From: an uncultured Saprospiraceae bacterium
GTDB lineage: Bacteria > Bacteroidota > Bacteroidia > Chitinophagales > Saprospiraceae
Reading direction: 5' to 3'
Assembly (NCBI GenBank): GCA_938028705.1
Contig: CALIZI010000082.1
Location: forward strand, 1-64,000
Length of the DNA stretch: 64,000 nt
The stretch's first letter is position 1. Every line of letters starts with the position of its first letter. The notes beneath the pieces are model-generated. The model did not search any database. It was given only the letters and a program-made list of their open reading frames with translations, and was not told the origin of the DNA. The position numbers and the translations under genes were made by a program. Positions 5,746 through 57,489 of this stretch are shown one piece after another.

Positions 5746-6022
5746 ATATTTATATTTTAATGGTTAATGGTCAATGATTAATGATTAATAGTGGATTTGC
5801 GATAAAAAACGCACAAAAGTAATAAAATTATCGGTGTATCAGGTAATTGGTTGAACGGTGTATCAGTTGAACAGGTAGTCAGGTAGTAGTACAGGTTAAT
5901 TGTATTAAAATATTTTTTATTTAAAATAAAAATAATTTAATAAAAATGTACAAAACTAATCCCCTAATCACTCTATAAACCAATCACTCTATCAACTTTA
6001 TAAACTCTATCAACTCCACAAA

Positions 6023-6814
6023 CTACTCACAAGTCAGGTCAAACATCCGTTCAATATCTGCCAGATAAAGTTGGTCAATATACGCACCATTCGGATTACC
6101 GCGAATGAAATTTTGGTATAATAATGCCTTTTTAAATTGCTTACAAGCCAGTGCCTTATTGCCTTTTTTGTGACTAACTATACCTTTATGATAATAGGCT
6201 TCGGGGCATTTTTCCCACTTCCGAATGATGGTATCAAAATCAGCATTAGCACCCTCATAATCAGCGAGTTCAATCTTGGTCAATCCTCTGTGCATAAAGA
6301 CGTACAAATCAACATCATCTTCACCAAATCGCTCAATATAGTCGTCGAAAGTAGTGAGTGCGGTTGTATAATCACCCATTTCTTTGTAGGTAAGCCCCAG
6401 ACGAGTATAAGCACTACCGGGAATGATAATGTCAATATGATTATTGTGTTGAATAGCGGTCTTAAAATCCTTAATCGCGCCTTCATAATCTCCGATAGAT
6501 AGCTTGCACATACCCGTATAATTGGCATACATATATGGGTCAAGTTCTGCGGCACGATTCATATAAGGCATACCCTCTATGTAATTATCCTTTCTGATTA
6601 GTTGCAATCCTTTCCGGTAATACGCCCATGCTTCCGTCGGATATTCGGCAATGATACTATCCAATGTTGCCCACCAATCCGGCGAAGCATAGCCCAGTTT
6701 GTCCAAGCGTTCTTTGGCAGCTTTTTCATCATATTCAGGCTGCGGAAAACAGCCGCTAAAACCAATAATTCCAAGTAAAAAAATACAATATAATTGAAAA
6801 GTAATTTTATTCAT
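6023..6814 (-). CDS. tetratricopeptide-repeat lipoprotein
   Basis: A 263-residue protein with a signal peptide and lipobox FSGC (Cys about 22), followed by six or so TPR-like helical pairs (for example AWAYYRKGLQLIRKDNYIEG, then AAELDPYMYANYTGMCKLSIGDYEGAIKDF and AYTRLGLTYKEMGDYTTALTTFDDYI, each split across helices). TPRs mediate protein-protein contacts, so an envelope scaffold role is likely but not specific. It lies between other minus-strand genes with an 81-bp gap to the lipoprotein upstream at 6896. Confidence 0.8.
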   Translation of the reverse strand: MNKITFQLYCIFLLGIIGFSGCFPQPEYDEKAAKERLDKLGYASPDWWATLDSIIAEYPTEAWAYYRKGLQLIRKDNYIEGMPYMNRAAELDPYMYANYTGMCKLSIGDYEGAIKDFKTAIQHNNHIDIIIPGSAYTRLGLTYKEMGDYTTALTTFDDYIERFGEDDVDLYVFMHRGLTKIELADYEGANADFDTIIRKWEKCPEAYYHKGIVSHKKGNKALACKQFKKALLYQNFIRGNPNGAYIDQLYLADIERMFDLTCE

Positions 6815-7969: not shown

Positions 7970-8122
7970 GTGTAATTAACGATAAATTGTAGAGATACAA
8001 AATTAAAGTGTGGTTGATTAATATTATTATCAACTAATAACTTAGTTTAAAGTGATTTTATTACCCAAGTTAGCTGAATTAATTAATTTAGGTTGCGGAT
8101 AAAGACAAGTTCATTCATGTAG

Positions 8123-8343
8123 TTGACACTTTATACGATATTAATTTTACACAAAGTATCATAAACCCGTTTGGTAAACTTTTCAAGTTTGCTAAACGTG
8201 GATAAGGTACTAAAGTTTGTAACTAGCTAAAAATCAGTACATTACTTCTCCGATAGCTATCGGAGACCAAACTTTTTGAAGTTTAGCAAACGGAGTATTT
8301 AAATTTTGTTTTGATTTTTAAAATGAGATTCCAAAAGTGTCAA
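8123..8343. repeat. repeat family II, copy 1
   Basis: An element of about 221 bp whose ends are inverted (ttgacacttt at 8123 and aaaagtgtcaa ending at 8343). Internal inverted arms match around 'cccgtttggtaaactt' and 'aagtttagcaaacgg'. A second copy is at 16929-17134. The interior hairpin differs: this copy holds a ctccgatagctatcggag palindrome that copy 2 lacks. No coding capacity. Confidence 0.75.
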
Positions 8344-9430: not shown

Positions 9431-9638
9431 CTTGACAATGTCATGTTTTAAAAATAGAAATATGTTTGTGTTTAACATAGGATATTTTTTCCGAATTTGG
9501 TCTAAAACTCGTCAGACATTTAAATATTGCTAGAAAAATATGACATCATCAGTGAATTTTGAAAATGTCAGACGAGTTTTAGACCAAATTCAAGAGTAAA
9601 ATATCAAATGTATAAAATAAAAATATAATATTATCAAG
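9431..9638 (+). mobile_element. palindromic MITE-like family I, copy A
   Basis: A 208-bp element beginning cttgacaatgtcatg and ending attatcaag. Inner inverted arms start aatttggtctaaaactcgtc (9494) and end gacgagttttagaccaaatt. The 4-bp repeat ttaa is present on both borders. The arms carry a T/A pair where copies B and C have G/C, a paired change. It sits between the OsmC-like gene and metZ, inside the SAM-controlled unit, and is in the same orientation as copy B. No ORF. Confidence 0.85.
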
Positions 9639-9691
9639 TTAATAAAAATATTTAACAATGCAGTAATATGACAATGAAGCAATCAAACAAT

Positions 9692-12430: not shown

Positions 12431-12756
12431 TTGGTTAATTAGTTGAACAGATAATTAAATTAACTTGATGATATATTTTTTAATGTGAAAATAGTTTATA
12501 ATTTATTTATTATAAAAACAATAAAAATATAAATTTTTATTTTGTATTAAAATTATGATTTTACTGAAATGAGGGCATTTTTAAATTATTTTATAATAAA
12601 AAATATTTATAAATAAATAATTATTAATAACAAATAAATTATAATTTTAATTAATTTAAAAACGGCTATATTTCAGTACGACCAATTATCTAATTACCCG
12701 TTCACCTGATTAACTAATCAACCAATTTACTAATTTACTAATCAACTAATCAACAG
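12431..12756. repeat. mirrored word array around an AT-rich core
   Basis: Left words (ttgattggttaattagttgaac) mirror the right words (gttcacctgattaactaatcaac and repeats of ctaatcaac up to the next start codon). The 200-bp centre is nearly pure A/T. No gene is seen. The right arm supplies the leader of the glutamate dehydrogenase mRNA. Confidence 0.55.
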
Positions 12757-16908: not shown

Positions 16909-16928
16909 TGACAAGTTTATCTGATTGG

Positions 16929-17134
16929 TTGACACTTTATACGATATTAATTTTATACAAAATATAGTAACCCGTTTGATAAACTTTTCAAGTTTGCTAA
17001 ACGTGGGCAGGGTACTGAAATTTATAATTAGCTAAAAAACAGTACTTTACTTATGTTTACTAAACTCTTTGAAGTTTAGTAAACGGGGTTTTTAAATATT
17101 TTTTTTATTTTAAAATGAAGTCAAAAAAAGTGTC
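16929..17134. repeat. repeat family II, copy 2
   Basis: Matches 8123-8343 over most of its length: the same ttgacactttatacgatatt left end, cccgtttgataaacttttca and tttgctaaacgtgg arms, gctaaaaa-cagta segment and aagtttagtaaacgg right arm, ending aaaaaagtgtc. It is about 15 bp shorter in the central hairpin. Confidence 0.75.
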
Positions 17135-34229: not shown

Positions 34230-34394
34230 AAGTTGATTGAGTTTATAGAGTTTATGAAGTTTATAGAGTTTATGAAGTTTATAGAGTGATTAGTTAGCAT
34301 TTTGCCGTAGGCAAAACCGATAACTCAATCAACTTTATCAACTTTATCAACTCAATAAACTCTATCAACTTTATCAACTCTATCAACTCAATCA
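34230..34394. repeat. mirrored word array
   Basis: Tandem words of 'gagtttatagagtttatgaagtt' on the left mirror 'aactttatcaactcaataaactctatc' on the right, with 'gccgtaggc' at the centre. It lies immediately downstream of the M14 carboxypeptidase gene. The same words appear at 19161, 39434 and 44836. Confidence 0.6.
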
Positions 34395-34395
34395 A

Positions 34396-36903
34396 CTATT
34401 CCCCTACAAAAAATACGGCATTGCCGAGCAGTAATTTTCCACTATGCCAGAAACCGCGAAATACCGGAGAATCCACAAAATAAACCAAGTGTCCGCTACC
34501 GATACCTTCGGTGCCGATAGCCATAGAGTTGACCAAATTGCGCTTTAGGTTTTGCCCGACAAAACCACTGACATGACCATCATTTTTAATCACACCCACA
34601 TTCCACGCATCTGTGTAAGGGTAAGCAGTAGAGTTGCGACGCATGATATGAATACTTGTATCTTCACCAAAAGCAAGCGGGTGCGAATCATCCAAATGTA
34701 CCTTATATATAGTACCCGGAACGTAATTGTTGAGGTAAGAACGCTCGCTGTCTTCGTAGCGTTTCAGTTTGGTATCTTTGCCATTATTATTGCTTCCATT
34801 ATCAGCGTCTTTCATGGCATTGGCGAGTGCGGTGTCGCCACTCGAAAATGCACTGATAGCCTGTTCTAAGGCGATGATTTTACCACCACCTCTTGCATAG
34901 TCCAAGAGTTGAGTGGTCAATTTTCCGTAGCTGCCCGAAGGTAAGACCAAGACATCGTATTCACTGAAATCCACGCTGCTTGCGTAGTCCATATTGAGTA
35001 CCGAAAAAGGGTATGCAATCTCTTGGTCGAAGTAATGCCACAGTTCTCCGAAGGCATTGGCATCTGTGCCTTTTCCATTGAGCAATGCTACTTTTGGAGC
35101 GCGAAGGTGGTGTACGGCATCTGAGCCTAAATCGGGTCCGCTTTCTGCCATACTTGTACGGGCATAAAACAGATTTTGTTGTTGATCATTGGCAATTTGA
35201 ATGACTTTTTTATCAAAATCCCTGACCGATTTATTTTGACTTCGGGGAATAACGAGCGTACCTCTGTCAAATTTTTGTCCGTCAATAGTCAGTGGTTTTT
35301 GGGTGAATTTTACTTTAATATTTTCTTTTAATAAATGGGCTAAAAAACGCACATCTTGTACATCCTTCCAAACTGCCAGATAAGCTACGGGTTTGCGCTT
35401 GGGACTAATGTTTTGTGCAAATTTTAAGTCATATTCCCGGTCAGTCTCAATGCGCTCCTTCGATGCGTAGGCTTCCACTTCATAGATGTAGGGCAATGCC
35501 CATGCCGTCACATCATAGGTGAGCGAATCTTCCAAAATAGATTTGGGTTCAAACAAGACCTTTACCATGACGGACTTGGGTTGGTAGGCACTTATAATCA
35601 CGTCATTTTCATGCAATTGGAATGTACCGTTTTTATTATTTAAATAATCAAAACCACTGACCGACCTTCCTGATTTTCCTGCCATGCGGTACTCAATGTT
35701 CTGTTTATCAAGGAGTTGGAGCAAGGCATTGATCCGCGAATGGTCGTTTGAACCTTTTATAATATAAGATTTATACTCACCGGGCGGATTGCTTTTGGCA
35801 GCTTGAAAATATTGTTCAAATTCGCGGGTCATTCTGTCGCGGTTGGTGTATGCCACTTCGATGGTCGATAAACTTGTGGTGTAATGATGCGCTACGCGGT
35901 CAGCCAAAGTGAGGGTATCTCCATGGTCATTGACCACTGCCAAACCTGCATCGCGTGAGCCGCCTTGCTCGTAGGTGAAGCCCATAGCACCATTGAAAAT
36001 AGGCCAAGTATCGCCATAGCTCGGATAAAATAAATCGAAGTATTCTTTGGTATAAAATGACCAGCCTTCTTCATCAAAATAACCTGCGTGATTGTCACCT
36101 ACAAGTTGTTGAAACTCGCGCTGCCAGGGGGTGATACTTTCGTGTAGCGGGTGTGCGGCGGGTGCGAAAAAGTAGGGCGAATTGATACCCATTTCGTGGA
36201 AATCAACGTGTACGTGCGGCATCCAGTTTTGATAATGTACTGCTCGTTGTTGGCTTTCGACTTGTACCTGCCAAGCCCAGTCGCGGTTGAGGTCGAAGAG
36301 ATAGTGATTGACCCGTCCGCCGGGCCAAGTGGAGTGGTGTTCTTCCGAATTTTGGTCCACATTGGGCTGTGCCAACATGACACCATTATACCAGTTGACG
36401 TAGCGGTCGCGTCCGTCAGGATTGAGGCAAGGGTCCATGATGACAATGGTGTTTTCGAGCCATTTGTTGATGTCTTTATCGCCACTCGTAAGTTTTTCCA
36501 ATACACTCAAAGCTGCTTCGCTCGATACCGCTTCGTCGCCATGTATGTTGTAGCTCAACCAAACGATAAGCGGCTGTTGGTCAGGAACTATCGTATTGTC
36601 ATTCAAGCCAATGCGTGCGAGATGTCCTTTGCGTAAAGTTTCTAATTGACGAATATTTTGAGGGGAGGATATGGCTACTGTTACGAGCGGACGACCTTCA
36701 AAGGTTTGTCCGTAAGGCATGAAACTGACCTGCGAAGAATTGTCAGCAATGTATTCAAAATAATCCACCACGCGATGATGTCGGGTGAATTTTGTGCCTA
36801 CTTCGTAACCTAAAAATTGGGCAGGGGAGAGGAGTTGACCGTCTTGTGCTGATACGCTGTATGCGACCAATAAAGACAGTAGTAAAATACGTATTTTTTT
36901 CAT
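34396..36903 (-). CDS. M14 family zinc carboxypeptidase, secreted
   Basis: An 835-residue protein with signal peptide (1-19, …AYSVSAQ). The M14 peptidase domain (about 45-340) shows zinc ligands in NIHGDEAVSSEAA (HxxE) and the third His in HVDFHEMG, plus a candidate general-base Glu in FTYEQGGSRDAG. After a linker, residues about 600-740 (VALLNGKGTDANAFGELWHYF … YDVLVLPSGSYGKL) form a glutamine-amidotransferase-like Rossmann module common in large Bacteroidota M14 proteins. It trims C-terminal residues from peptides in the periplasm or outside. No T9SS tail is apparent. Confidence 0.88.
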   Translation of the reverse strand: MKKIRILLLSLLVAYSVSAQDGQLLSPAQFLGYEVGTKFTRHHRVVDYFEYIADNSSQVSFMPYGQTFEGRPLVTVAISSPQNIRQLETLRKGHLARIGLNDNTIVPDQQPLIVWLSYNIHGDEAVSSEAALSVLEKLTSGDKDINKWLENTIVIMDPCLNPDGRDRYVNWYNGVMLAQPNVDQNSEEHHSTWPGGRVNHYLFDLNRDWAWQVQVESQQRAVHYQNWMPHVHVDFHEMGINSPYFFAPAAHPLHESITPWQREFQQLVGDNHAGYFDEEGWSFYTKEYFDLFYPSYGDTWPIFNGAMGFTYEQGGSRDAGLAVVNDHGDTLTLADRVAHHYTTSLSTIEVAYTNRDRMTREFEQYFQAAKSNPPGEYKSYIIKGSNDHSRINALLQLLDKQNIEYRMAGKSGRSVSGFDYLNNKNGTFQLHENDVIISAYQPKSVMVKVLFEPKSILEDSLTYDVTAWALPYIYEVEAYASKERIETDREYDLKFAQNISPKRKPVAYLAVWKDVQDVRFLAHLLKENIKVKFTQKPLTIDGQKFDRGTLVIPRSQNKSVRDFDKKVIQIANDQQQNLFYARTSMAESGPDLGSDAVHHLRAPKVALLNGKGTDANAFGELWHYFDQEIAYPFSVLNMDYASSVDFSEYDVLVLPSGSYGKLTTQLLDYARGGGKIIALEQAISAFSSGDTALANAMKDADNGSNNNGKDTKLKRYEDSERSYLNNYVPGTIYKVHLDDSHPLAFGEDTSIHIMRRNSTAYPYTDAWNVGVIKNDGHVSGFVGQNLKRNLVNSMAIGTEGIGSGHLVYFVDSPVFRGFWHSGKLLLGNAVFFVGE

Positions 36904-39317: not shown

Positions 39318-39436
39318 TTAACCCAATTTCGTATAAACCATATTTGGCTCATCGCTCTGTTAATGCGTATGTGTATTCATTGGTATATCCAATAATGAAT
39401 AAACGCAATAACGGAGCGATTTGCTTTTTGGGTTGA
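39318..39436. repeat. imperfect inverted repeat
   Basis: aacccaatttcg and atcgctctgttaatgcg on the left mirror cgcaataacggagcgat and ttttgggtt on the right, allowing a 119-nt hairpin. No ORF. Confidence 0.5.
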
Positions 39437-39551
39437 ATTAGTTTATAGAGTTTATAGAGTTTAGGATTTTGCCTACACAAAATTTAAACTCGATTTGACT
39501 AATCAACTTTATCAACTCAATAAACTCTATCAACTCAATCAACTAATCAAC
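39434..39551. repeat. mirrored word array
   Basis: ttgaattagtttatagagtt and tatagagttta on the left mirror aactctatcaactcaatcaa on the right; same word set as 34230-34394. Confidence 0.55.
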
Positions 39552-39771
39552 TTTTTCACAAATATTGAAAACTTTTATTACAAACATTCGTCTCATATAG
39601 GGTGCTTTGAGCAGCTTGGCGAAAATACGCTGTGATTTATTAGGAAAAGTCTTAAAAAAATGAGACTTTACAAAATCAATACATATTTTTATTTTACATT
39701 TTATATATAGAAGATTGTTGACTATTCGGCAAAAAGGCGGACAGTACATCAGTACATTTTGAAGTAATACA

Positions 39772-54042: not shown

Positions 54043-55398
54043 TTATTTTTGTTTCAATATCTCACTTCTCAGTGCATTCAGGTCAATGCGATTTTTTTTC
54101 ATATCAATAGTTTCGGCAGTATTTTTTAGGAGTTGAATAATGTCTGCTCTTTGGTCAGAATTGGTGACTACACTGCTCAATACCAATATATAATCGCCAC
54201 AAACCGTGGAGAGATAATGCTCTTCCAAAACGGTACGGGCTTTGTTTTCATCGCCCGATTTGATGGGAGCTTTGAAGTGCCAATGCAGGGCTTCGCGTCC
54301 GTTGCTATTCACCATTTCATGCTCAGGGAATAGCTCTAAAGCTACTTCTTCACTCAAGGTACTTCGGACGTTATTCATCTCGTCGCGCATCTGTGCGAGT
54401 AGCAATCCTTCGCCTTGCAGAGGCATATTGCCCCTGCTAAAATTGGAAACAGGCAGAGCTATCATTTGAAGTATTTTACCGTCCGTTATAAAACCGATAT
54501 TTCCTGTATTGATGGTTTTTACTTTGCTCCCCCTCACATCCACCGTAAAGAAAGAAGTCATCTCATTGAACACTTGAATAAAACCCGCATTGCTGCGAAT
54601 ACCGCCACTCCGATAATCCATAGATTTTATCAACTCACCCTGCTCGTACTCCTTGACATCCAGTAACTTACCTTTGCTACTCCACGATGAAAACCGACCG
54701 TTTTCTTTACCCGCAACATAATTACCTTCGGCTTTTTTCTGCTTATTGGCATACCATTCGGTATTTGTTCCATTTCGCTCTCCACCTTCAAATTGTGCTT
54801 CCAACATCCGCTCGCCATTCTCGTACCACTTGCGTATCGTACCTTCCTCCAAACCTTCCGAGTAGGTGATTTGTTGGTCTTTATTGCCATTCTCATGCCA
54901 CCACGTATGCAGCCCCTGCTCACGCCCATTGGCATACTCACCTTCCGATTTTTTTCCGCCACTCGGATACCACTCAGTAGCCATGCCATTCGGTACACTT
55001 TGCGTATAAGTGACCTCTACTTTTTGCTCACCATTCGAATACCATTGTCGCTCCAAACCCTCTTGTATGCCTTCCACAAAATTTGCTTCATATATTTTTT
55101 GTCCATATTCATCCCAACCTTTCGCCTTGCCGTGCATTTTACCATCCACAAAATCCACTTCCTCTTTTTTACGTGCCGTTTTCAAAAAAGCCTCATACTC
55201 TTCTTTGGCTTTTTCCTTTTGCTTATCATCCTCTGGCGAATATACCTCAAACGCCTTTCCTGTAAAAGGCTCAATGGTGTTGATTTGATAATATAATTTG
55301 TTATTCTGAATTTCTATTTTCGAAAAATGAACCCGCTTTTGAGCATAGCCATTCACCGACAAACAAAAAATTGACATCATTAAAATGTATTTTTTCAT
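54043..55398 (-). CDS. MORN-repeat (YwqK-like) secreted protein
   Basis: A 451-residue protein with a signal peptide (…CLSVNGYAQ). Residues about 85-270 contain around seven MORN_2/YwqK repeats of ~23 residues with the pattern 'G....W..NG.....Y..G...G' (for example GLERQWYSNGEQKVEVTYTQ, GMATEWYPSGGKKSEGEYAN, GTNTEWYANKQKKAEGNYVA). The remaining 180 residues are of unknown fold. Databases often label such repeats as a toxin-antitoxin YwqK antitoxin, but nothing here suggests a TA system; a structural envelope role is more likely. Confidence 0.8.
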   Translation of the reverse strand: MKKYILMMSIFCLSVNGYAQKRVHFSKIEIQNNKLYYQINTIEPFTGKAFEVYSPEDDKQKEKAKEEYEAFLKTARKKEEVDFVDGKMHGKAKGWDEYGQKIYEANFVEGIQEGLERQWYSNGEQKVEVTYTQSVPNGMATEWYPSGGKKSEGEYANGREQGLHTWWHENGNKDQQITYSEGLEEGTIRKWYENGERMLEAQFEGGERNGTNTEWYANKQKKAEGNYVAGKENGRFSSWSSKGKLLDVKEYEQGELIKSMDYRSGGIRSNAGFIQVFNEMTSFFTVDVRGSKVKTINTGNIGFITDGKILQMIALPVSNFSRGNMPLQGEGLLLAQMRDEMNNVRSTLSEEVALELFPEHEMVNSNGREALHWHFKAPIKSGDENKARTVLEEHYLSTVCGDYILVLSSVVTNSDQRADIIQLLKNTAETIDMKKNRIDLNALRSEILKQK

Positions 55399-55435: not shown

Positions 55436-55649
55436 CTTGACAATGTCATGTTCGATTTTTATTTAATATAGTCAGTGTTTGTCCTTGAATTTGGACTAAA
55501 ACTCGTCAGACATTTAAACTTTACCGAAAAAATATGAGTTCATTAGTGAATTTTGAAAATGTCAGACGAGTTTTAGCCCAAATTCGGAAAAAATATCCCA
55601 TTTCAAGTACAAACGCATTTTTATTTTTTTAAATGTGATATTGTCAAAG
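55436..55649 (-). mobile_element. palindromic MITE-like family I, copy D (rearranged)
   Basis: A 214-bp element. Outer arms run in the copy C orientation (cttgacaatgtcatgttcga … cggaaaaaatatccc … gatattgtcaaag), but the centre (aaactttaccgaaaaaatat … agtgaattttga) runs in the copy A/B orientation. The centre is thus inverted relative to the arms. It is the most diverged copy: inner arms mismatch at one position and no border duplication is visible. Confidence 0.8.
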
Positions 55650-55911
55650 AACCATAAATTTTTATTATAATTAAATTAATTTTTAATAAATAATTTTTAA
55701 ATTTATGATTATTTTAAAATCACTTCTACTGAAATAAGGACATTTTTAAATCATTTTATAATAAAAAATATTTATAATTAATAAATTATTAGTAATTAAT
55801 AAATTCTAAAATAATATAATGCAAAAATTGAGTTATATCTTCTCTTTTTTTAAATTAAAAACTCAGACATGTTCTAACATATAACTAATTTTCAAACACT
55901 AAATTTAAATC
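55650..55911. other. AT-rich leader region of the lysyl oxidase gene
   Basis: Nearly pure A/T with mirrored runs around 55665-55800. No gene. Promoter not resolved. Confidence 0.35.
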
Positions 55912-57489
55912 ATGAGAATACACCTATCTATCTTAATGACCCTTTTAATGCCTGCTCTTCTTTTTGCCCAACCTTGTACGGTCAATGATGCCAGAGGATG
56001 TGTATGTGAAGACGGTAGTACGGATTGTTATTTATTGCCCAATATCAAACTTTCTTACGACCTTCTGGTGGATGCGGCAGAAAATCCGGAGACTCCCGGT
56101 TTGTTAAGAGTATCAGTTTCCACTCCAAATGTAGGACACGGACCATTGAGAGTCATTGCTACGAATGACCTCGTTTGCGGAGTCGATACTTTTTTTAATA
56201 GTAGCATCACTGTCTGTCCTGACGGAAGTGACCCGAGCCAACTGGTCAAGCAACGAGTTTATCGCAAGCAAGGCGACAACATGACATACCAAGACCGCTG
56301 GGCAGGTACGATGACCTATCACCCTACACATGCCCACGCTCATTTTGACGATTGGGGCGTGTATTCCCTACGCATCCCCGACCCCAACGAGCCGAATCCA
56401 CTCAACTGGACGATGGTGGGCGAAGGAGCAAAACTCGGTTTTTGTCTGATGGATTATGGTACTTGTGAATACTATAATGGGCATTGCAGGGATGATAACG
56501 ATAATATCTTGACGACTAATCTTCCGAACTACGGTTTGGGTGGCGGAACATACTCTTGTGGTGTGACCAATCAGGGTATCAGTGTAGGTTGGACGGATGT
56601 TTATTATTACTATCTGGACGGCATGTTTATCACGATTCCCGCAGGGGTTTGTAATGGTGATTACGCGCTTGTCGTGCAAGTTGACCCGCATGATGTCCTG
56701 CTGGAAGAAAATGAAAATGACAATCTAATGGTTGCGCCGATTACACTGACCCAACAGACGAATTGCGTTTGTGCAAGCCTTGACCTTGACATCAGATTCG
56801 ATGGTTTTCCTACACAAACCAATTGGGAAATCACAGATGCTAATGGCACTGTGGTAGCTTCCGGCGATGGTAGCGGAAGTATTGGAAATGCTAATGTTAT
56901 AGAAAATACTTGTTTGCCTGATGGCTGTTATGATTTGACTTTTTACGATACTGTGGGCAATGGTATGTGTCCTTTTCAAAGTGCCGCCAATAGTTCAGGT
57001 ACTTTTATTACGCCGGGTACTTTGATTTCGTCGGGGAGTGTGGTGGCTAGTTTAGGCTCGGTTGTCACGCCCGGCTTATGTGGCAGTTATAGCCTTTATG
57101 ATGCCACCGGAAATTTAATTGTTTCGGGTGGTGGCGGTTTTGGTGCTTCGCAGAGCAATAATTTTTGTATGGTCAATGGCGTACCACAGCGCATAATGCC
57201 TGATACGGAAGGACTTGGGTATGATAATAAGAGAATGGCAAATACTTCTTTGCTGAATGTATATCCGACTTTGGCTTCGGACCGACTCACGATTCATTAT
57301 AACAGTAGCGAAGATATAGAAATTAATGTCATTGATATCAACGGTAAAATTTTGCAACAATATTCACGAGATAAACATGCAGCATCCATTACTACATTAA
57401 ATATATCGAATATTCCAACAGGTATTTATTTTATTCAAATTATGACTGCTAATGGTGTTGTGATGACGGAAAAGTTTGTGAAGCAATAA
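55912..57489 (+). CDS. lysyl oxidase family protein with T9SS domain
   Basis: A 525-residue secreted protein. Residues about 35-285 match the lysyl oxidase domain: copper-site histidines in YHPTHAHAHFDDWG (H137, H140, H142, H144), the quinone-cofactor lysine K174 in EGAKLGFCLMD and tyrosine Y231 in QGISVGWTDVYYYYLDG, and the closing NGDYALVVQVDPHDVLLEEN. In animals this fold oxidises peptidyl lysine to allysine for crosslinking. Residues about 290-430 hold a Cys-rich module repeated in the next gene, and 445-525 a T9SS sorting domain. Substrate here is unknown. Confidence 0.88.
   Translation: MRIHLSILMTLLMPALLFAQPCTVNDARGCVCEDGSTDCYLLPNIKLSYDLLVDAAENPETPGLLRVSVSTPNVGHGPLRVIATNDLVCGVDTFFNSSITVCPDGSDPSQLVKQRVYRKQGDNMTYQDRWAGTMTYHPTHAHAHFDDWGVYSLRIPDPNEPNPLNWTMVGEGAKLGFCLMDYGTCEYYNGHCRDDNDNILTTNLPNYGLGGGTYSCGVTNQGISVGWTDVYYYYLDGMFITIPAGVCNGDYALVVQVDPHDVLLEENENDNLMVAPITLTQQTNCVCASLDLDIRFDGFPTQTNWEITDANGTVVASGDGSGSIGNANVIENTCLPDGCYDLTFYDTVGNGMCPFQSAANSSGTFITPGTLISSGSVVASLGSVVTPGLCGSYSLYDATGNLIVSGGGGFGASQSNNFCMVNGVPQRIMPDTEGLGYDNKRMANTSLLNVYPTLASDRLTIHYNSSEDIEINVIDINGKILQQYSRDKHAASITTLNISNIPTGIYFIQIMTANGVVMTEKFVKQ

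Follow-up and report, generated by a model that had tools for sequence, protein, structure and literature searches.

How the middle of a small mobile element comes to be read in either direction is the question raised by copy D, one of the four copies of a repeat found in the window, by which is meant the whole 64,000-nucleotide stretch of DNA analysed here, part of an 8.0-Mb draft Saprospiraceae genome in 483 contigs. In this repeat, a short centre lies between two inner arms, which are enclosed by two outer halves, X and Y. It has been found by sequence and repeat analysis that copies A and B (+ strand) and C (- strand) read Y half, arm, centre (AAA..TTG......TTTTGA), arm and X half, while copy D reads X half, arm, centre in the same reading direction, arm and Y half. 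Since the X half comes first in D with the direction of the centre unchanged, its outer halves run as in C (on the + strand) and its centre as in A and B, and both lines of analysis thus confirm what the original prediction had claimed. The inner arms, which had been described there as 28-base, do exist and have been corrected to 29 bp (GAATTTGGNNTAAAACTCGTCWGACATTT), with one internal A/T mismatch as the usual state. The copies and the parts of D lie as follows.

9431..9642, + strand: copy A, usual orientation, target duplication TTAA
15776..15988, + strand: copy B, usual orientation, target duplication ATAA
36921..37133, - strand: copy C, usual orientation, target duplication ATAA
55436..55650, - strand: copy D, a whole XY-family MITE, outer halves X to Y as read on the + strand, with the centre turned round in comparison with A, B and C
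55436..55486, + strand: outer half X of D, starting with the terminal repeat CTTGACAATGTCATGTT
55487..55515, + strand: left inner arm of D, 29 bp, marker base A at 55508
55516..55556, + strand: centre (spacer) of D, 41 bp, of D type (AAACTTTACCG..TGAATTTTGA), its direction reversed with respect to the outer halves
55557..55585, - strand: right inner arm of D, 29 bp, marker base at 55564
55586..55650, - strand: outer half Y of D, with the terminal repeat ATATTGTCAA at its end

Two MITE families with a common core

The genes on either side of copy D, 54043-55398 (-) and 55912-57489 (+), are read divergently and leave a gap of 513 bp in which D sits. The target duplication of D has decayed and is no longer recognisable, and elsewhere in the genome there are relatives that are 96% identical to it. 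The gene to its left is conserved in congeneric genomes (~75% identity in G005 and G003, ~70% in G004), and the core of the element was not found at the matching loci of G003, G004 and G005. In G005 the locus of D is itself conserved, with the sequence upstream of the gene present and empty of the element. An AT-rich repeat (window 55724-55827) adjoins D and has an 83% identical partner at 12559-12662. Other repeats in the window include a pair at 8104-8341 and 16910-17134 with internal inverted repeats (CCGTTTGGTAAACTT / AAGTTTAGCAAACGG), and arrays of a 9-bp unit (ACTCTATCA / AACTTTATC type) at 34230-34415, 39431-39571 and 5958-6042, some of which form long inverted repeats.

When the inner palindrome was searched for as CGTCNGACATTT-N30-55-AAATGTCNGACG, the 8.0-Mb genome gave 255 exact matches, and the reversed pattern, used as a control, gave none. 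The flipped structure of D and the copy number of the palindrome are thus far beyond chance. A set of 191 distinct copies was read, made up of the first hundred matches to each of two patterns and the nearest relatives of D. In the XY family, to which D belongs, the element is ~213 bp long with terminal inverted repeats CTTGACAATRTCATGTT, and of the 101 copies in which both ends are present, 64 have an exact 4-bp target duplication (NTAN), compared with 13.7 for shuffled pairings. A second family, ZY, is ~295 bp long and has 24-bp terminal repeats (GGGTGCGATTCGTTTTTGTACCCA) and a 9-bp target duplication, found in 14 of 24 copies, while its inner palindrome is the same as that of XY. Only 1 of the 129 copies having enough context overlaps a long ORF. 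Copy D is a copy of a high-copy, non-coding, non-autonomous DNA transposon (MITE); by their structure both XY and ZY are MITEs, and the two are new families that have a palindromic core in common.

A transposase partner would carry the ends CTTGACAAT and GGGTGCGATTCG. The six PF01609 loci of the draft genome all lack the MITE ends and no PF13586 locus was found in it; these two transposase families, the ones that were searched, thus yielded no autonomous partner. In Rfam, nothing scored above the gathering score for the element, and a known structured RNA was set aside, with the weak matches below the cut-off being mostly to eukaryotic microRNA hairpin families. There was no match to the element among plasmids, phages and viral contigs, and the named records that share the palindrome are uncultured Saprospiraceae MAGs.

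Several structural variants are found among the copies. The ZY copies include L037, L070, L103 and L219, and the Y half of ZY holds the XY end sequence TTAACTTGAC internally. Five copies (L102, L142, L208, L213, L217) are one-ended chimeras, in which one outer half has been replaced by unrelated sequence near the inner arm, the replacement often beginning at GGGATATTTTTTCC. At L164:1612, a copy of a second palindrome family (described below) has apparently been inserted into an XY-type element, within its arm (CTAAA|CAGG...).

Orientation of the centre among genome copies

For the comparison of copies, orientation was called forward when the Y half is on the left (as in A, B and C) and flipped when the X or Z half is on the left (as in D). 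Among the 191 distinct copies the ratio of forward to flipped is 81:36 in XY and 6:31 in ZY, ratios that are approximate because the sample consists of the first hundred places per pattern and the nearest relatives of D. Genome-wide, junctions with up to 2 mismatches number 155 for Y-left and 111 for X/Z-left, the latter containing a few Y-type junctions mis-assigned at 2 mismatches, against 0 in controls, such that the genome-wide comparison proposed earlier finds both orientations common. Two congeneric species, in separate assemblies, each have both orientations as well. This last observation bears on the possibility that cores were put together the wrong way round when more than 250 near-identical copies were assembled from short reads, as might be suspected of a draft of 483 contigs, many of which end inside the element. 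Such an artefact is highly improbable, as an orienting junction requires an unbroken stretch of only ~45 bp and so fits within a single read, exact target duplications are as frequent in flipped (21/30) as in unflipped (41/67) copies, and the equally repetitive second palindrome family has no mass flipping.

The relation of orientation to descent was examined in the outer halves of 97 complete XY copies, aligned without arms and centre. In these copies, the nearest neighbour has the same orientation at a frequency of 0.574, compared with 0.575 for shuffled labels, while it has the same centre type at a frequency of 0.346, compared with 0.185 (z = 4.4). When mapped on a likelihood tree built from the outer halves, orientation changes 24 times (shuffled 25.7 +/- 1.9), as opposed to 5 times for the D-type centre (shuffled 13.3 +/- 0.8). 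The phylogeny of the outer halves is therefore followed by the centre sequence type, whereas the orientation of the centre bears no relation to it. Pairs with no more than 2 outer differences are opposite in orientation in 64% of cases, compared with an expected 43%, in 28 pairs dominated by a few copies. One such example is in the flipped copies L007 and L008, which differ from the forward copy L040 at one outer and one centre position. Similarly, within the subfamily of D, L009, L012, L030, L045 and L053 are forward and D, L090, L100 and L104 are flipped, and each of these copies has the D-type centre. The case of two old, fixed subfamilies, which had been named as the one that would speak against inversion, was rejected because orientation has no phylogenetic signal and both orientations occur in the D subfamily with the same centre sequence. 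The proposal of an inversion between the inner arms has thus been borne out, and the reading that the centre has been inverted recurrently, in many independent copies, is supported, with both orientations being common in both families. Orientation can also be inherited, as the near-identical copies L007 and L008, and likewise L090 and L100, have a common flipped state.

Across four bins of increasing divergence, the fraction of flipped copies is 0.30, 0.37, 0.25 and 0.30, which argues against flipping that accumulates with age, and the matching of arms has no trend with copy divergence across bins. Orthologous insertions in congeners, sought in order to catch a flip at one locus, were not found, and flank matches resembled other repeats. 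While steady accumulation predicts a rise of the flipped fraction and fast symmetric flipping predicts a 50:50 ratio, neither is seen, and flipping at the making or moving of a copy is thus a serious rival, as a frequency independent of divergence is what is expected if flipping accompanies copying or transposition. In this account, which takes up the earlier suggestion of hairpin intermediates, inversion would be coupled to transposition through a hairpin or recombining intermediate, and a new copy would land with either centre direction and then be stable. It agrees with a flipped fraction that is already high among the closest copies and with a ratio that is not 50:50. It is nevertheless only a possible account and an unlikely one, given the flipped state common to the near-identical pairs above, the absence of a known transposase or intermediate, and a duplicated locus described below, whose arms changed in place with the orientation unchanged.

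The second palindrome family is unrelated to the first, with arms ACTGCTTTAGCTGTCAAGT, a spacer of ~60 bp and 47 exact copies. Of ~37 judgeable copies in this family, one (L132) is flipped, and there are two swapped spacers. Spacer inversion is therefore not unique to the MITE core, but it is much more frequent there. In G000, loci L251-L294 (e.g. L132:2404, L252:1500), this family has at least five spacer types.

Arm markers and how the centre may be turned

The place of exchange can be followed by a marker at position 21 of the aligned 28-bp arm, where A and T are the only bases that occur. In 76% of copies one arm has A and the other T, while in ~24% the two arms match (AA or TT). Among copies with mismatched arms, the A is on the Y side in 47 of 60 forward and 16 of 25 flipped copies, where a uniform crossover predicts 0.38 (P = 0.007). 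A crossover at any point of the arm would have led to an exchanged marker in the majority of flipped copies. As most of these have instead kept the marker together with their outer halves, exchange is placed near the loop; in nine flipped copies, D among these, the marker has moved together with the centre. Judged by this marker, the exchange point is usually in the innermost 7-8 bp of the arm, yet variable. The arms have also been made alike: at the duplicated locus L103/L181 (534 bp at 93%), one copy is AA and the other TT, a case of arm homogenisation, and at other positions identical changes in both arms occur 6 times, compared with 0.4 expected. The arm not used for detection, the only one judged because the search pattern inflates arm conservation, has 1.3% changes per site, compared with ~8% in the outer halves. 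The inner arm includes a small dyad, GTC-W-GAC, and the single strand folds far beyond shuffles (z = -6.1).

It had been suggested earlier that the inner palindrome is a recombination or invertible site. The recurrent inversion is in keeping with this, but it does not establish a dedicated, presently active switch, and the markers point to near-loop exchange and arm homogenisation. A dedicated invertase, a site-specific recombinase belonging either to the host or to the element and flipping the core at inner-arm sites as a phase switch, would account for the high frequency of flipping compared with the other palindrome family, for the better conservation of the arm not used for detection, and for the small dyad of the inner arm. 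However, site-specific inversion has a fixed crossover site, and here the marker both moved and stayed in flipped copies, with exchange on both sides of its position. The promoter motif TTTG-N17-21-TAnnTTTG occurs in 1 of the 191 copies, such that a promoter switch was rejected, and the 41-bp centre is too short to hold a gene. Centre and arms are present in two MITE families at hundreds of places, mostly with no gene in the segment. An invertase is therefore improbable, and the evidence at present does not speak for a regulated switch.

A further explanation is gene conversion or homologous exchange between copies, with palindromic arms that would allow the core of a donor to be inserted both ways round; it is somewhat less improbable than the invertase and still quite unlikely. 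Cores of another type are found in unchanged outer halves (L005, and L019, which has the outer halves of L009 with a ZY-type centre), and X/X, Y/Y and X/Z chimeras occur among the copies read. On the other hand, the centre type mostly stays with the outer subfamily in either orientation, and for this reason a foreign donor is unnecessary for most flips; arms of 29 bp are also short for RecA-type recombination.

The flips most likely come from copying errors at a DNA hairpin and not from a dedicated switch enzyme, and recurrent inversion by replication template switching at the hairpin is the account that we consider somewhat probable. In this mechanism, the middle of the MITE, an interrupted palindrome with 29-bp arms flanking a 41-bp spacer, would fold into a hairpin when single-stranded during replication or gap repair. 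The nascent strand would then switch to the opposite arm, copy the spacer backwards and switch back, leaving an inverted spacer and sometimes arms made identical. Switching may occur mainly when a copy is made or moved; the inversion itself is read straight from the sequence, while both the switching step and its timing are what we infer. In yeast, template switching at short inverted repeats has been reported to leave the spacer inverted and the arms homogenised (PMC8604942), and the joint presence of these two changes here thus carries the signature of this process. Further points in favour of template switching are that both orientations are common in the two families and in the D subfamily with the same centre sequence, that orientation has no phylogenetic signal though the centre type has one, and that near-loop exchange, matched arms, concerted arm changes and strong folding of the strand occur together. 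The flipped spacer of L132, in an unrelated palindrome family, is also in line with it. As opposed to this, neither the flipped fraction nor arm matching increases with divergence, and the ratio is far from 50:50, with an opposite bias in XY and ZY. The unrelated family flips ~ten times less often, so that something further would be required to explain the high frequency here by a purely generic process, and the core exchange between elements seen in L019 and L005 could explain part of the flips. The mechanism is most likely one of a known class, template switching at hairpins, that is unusual here in its frequency.

It is also conceivable, though doubtful, that inversion is a regular step of the life cycle (or the work of an enzyme on the inner arms), with each new copy taking either direction, unlike the other palindromes in the genome. 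If true, the flipping core would be built into the mobile element itself and common to two transposon families with different ends, and a tie between flipping and transposition would be new among small bacterial transposons. As two MITE families with different ends and target duplications have one core, the question of the purpose of this core is raised. With hundreds of copies of the palindrome in one genome and an arm marker, it becomes possible to measure without constructs how fast and when hairpin-mediated inversion happens and where its exchange point lies.

Comparison with known systems

The phase-variable, invertible promoters of Bacteroides have a segment that, like the centre here, is flanked by short inverted repeats and occurs in two orientations. 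The present element is different in that it has no linked promoter, gene or recombinase, its centre is only 41 bp, its exchange point varies and its arms are often homogenised.

Like the bacterial MITEs reviewed in PMC10969869, XY and ZY are short, non-coding and almost only intergenic, with a high copy number, terminal inverted repeats and target duplications. Unlike these, they have a long interrupted palindrome in the middle of the element, common to two families with unrelated ends, and the spacer of this palindrome is present in both directions. Another example is the Correia repeat enclosed elements of Neisseria, MITE-type elements for which inversion was reported by Elbeyioglu et al., 2017 (cited in PMC10969869). 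Going by that description, the whole Correia element inverts, as opposed to the 41-bp core alone, with the ends staying in place, as seen here.

The GTAG/CGTC-tagged REPs (PMC3733652) are likewise repeated extragenic palindromes, and the arm here has the letters CGTC. REPs are 20-40 bp and are not enclosed in a transposon with target duplications (PMC3733652), while here CGTC is inside the stem and the palindrome is enclosed in a transposon. Closest in its products is the template-switch spacer inversion of yeast, in which spacer inversion likewise goes together with arm homogenisation (PMC8604942). The yeast cases are scattered single loci, whereas in the Saprospiraceae genome one palindrome is found in hundreds of places, with an orientation fully uncoupled from descent.
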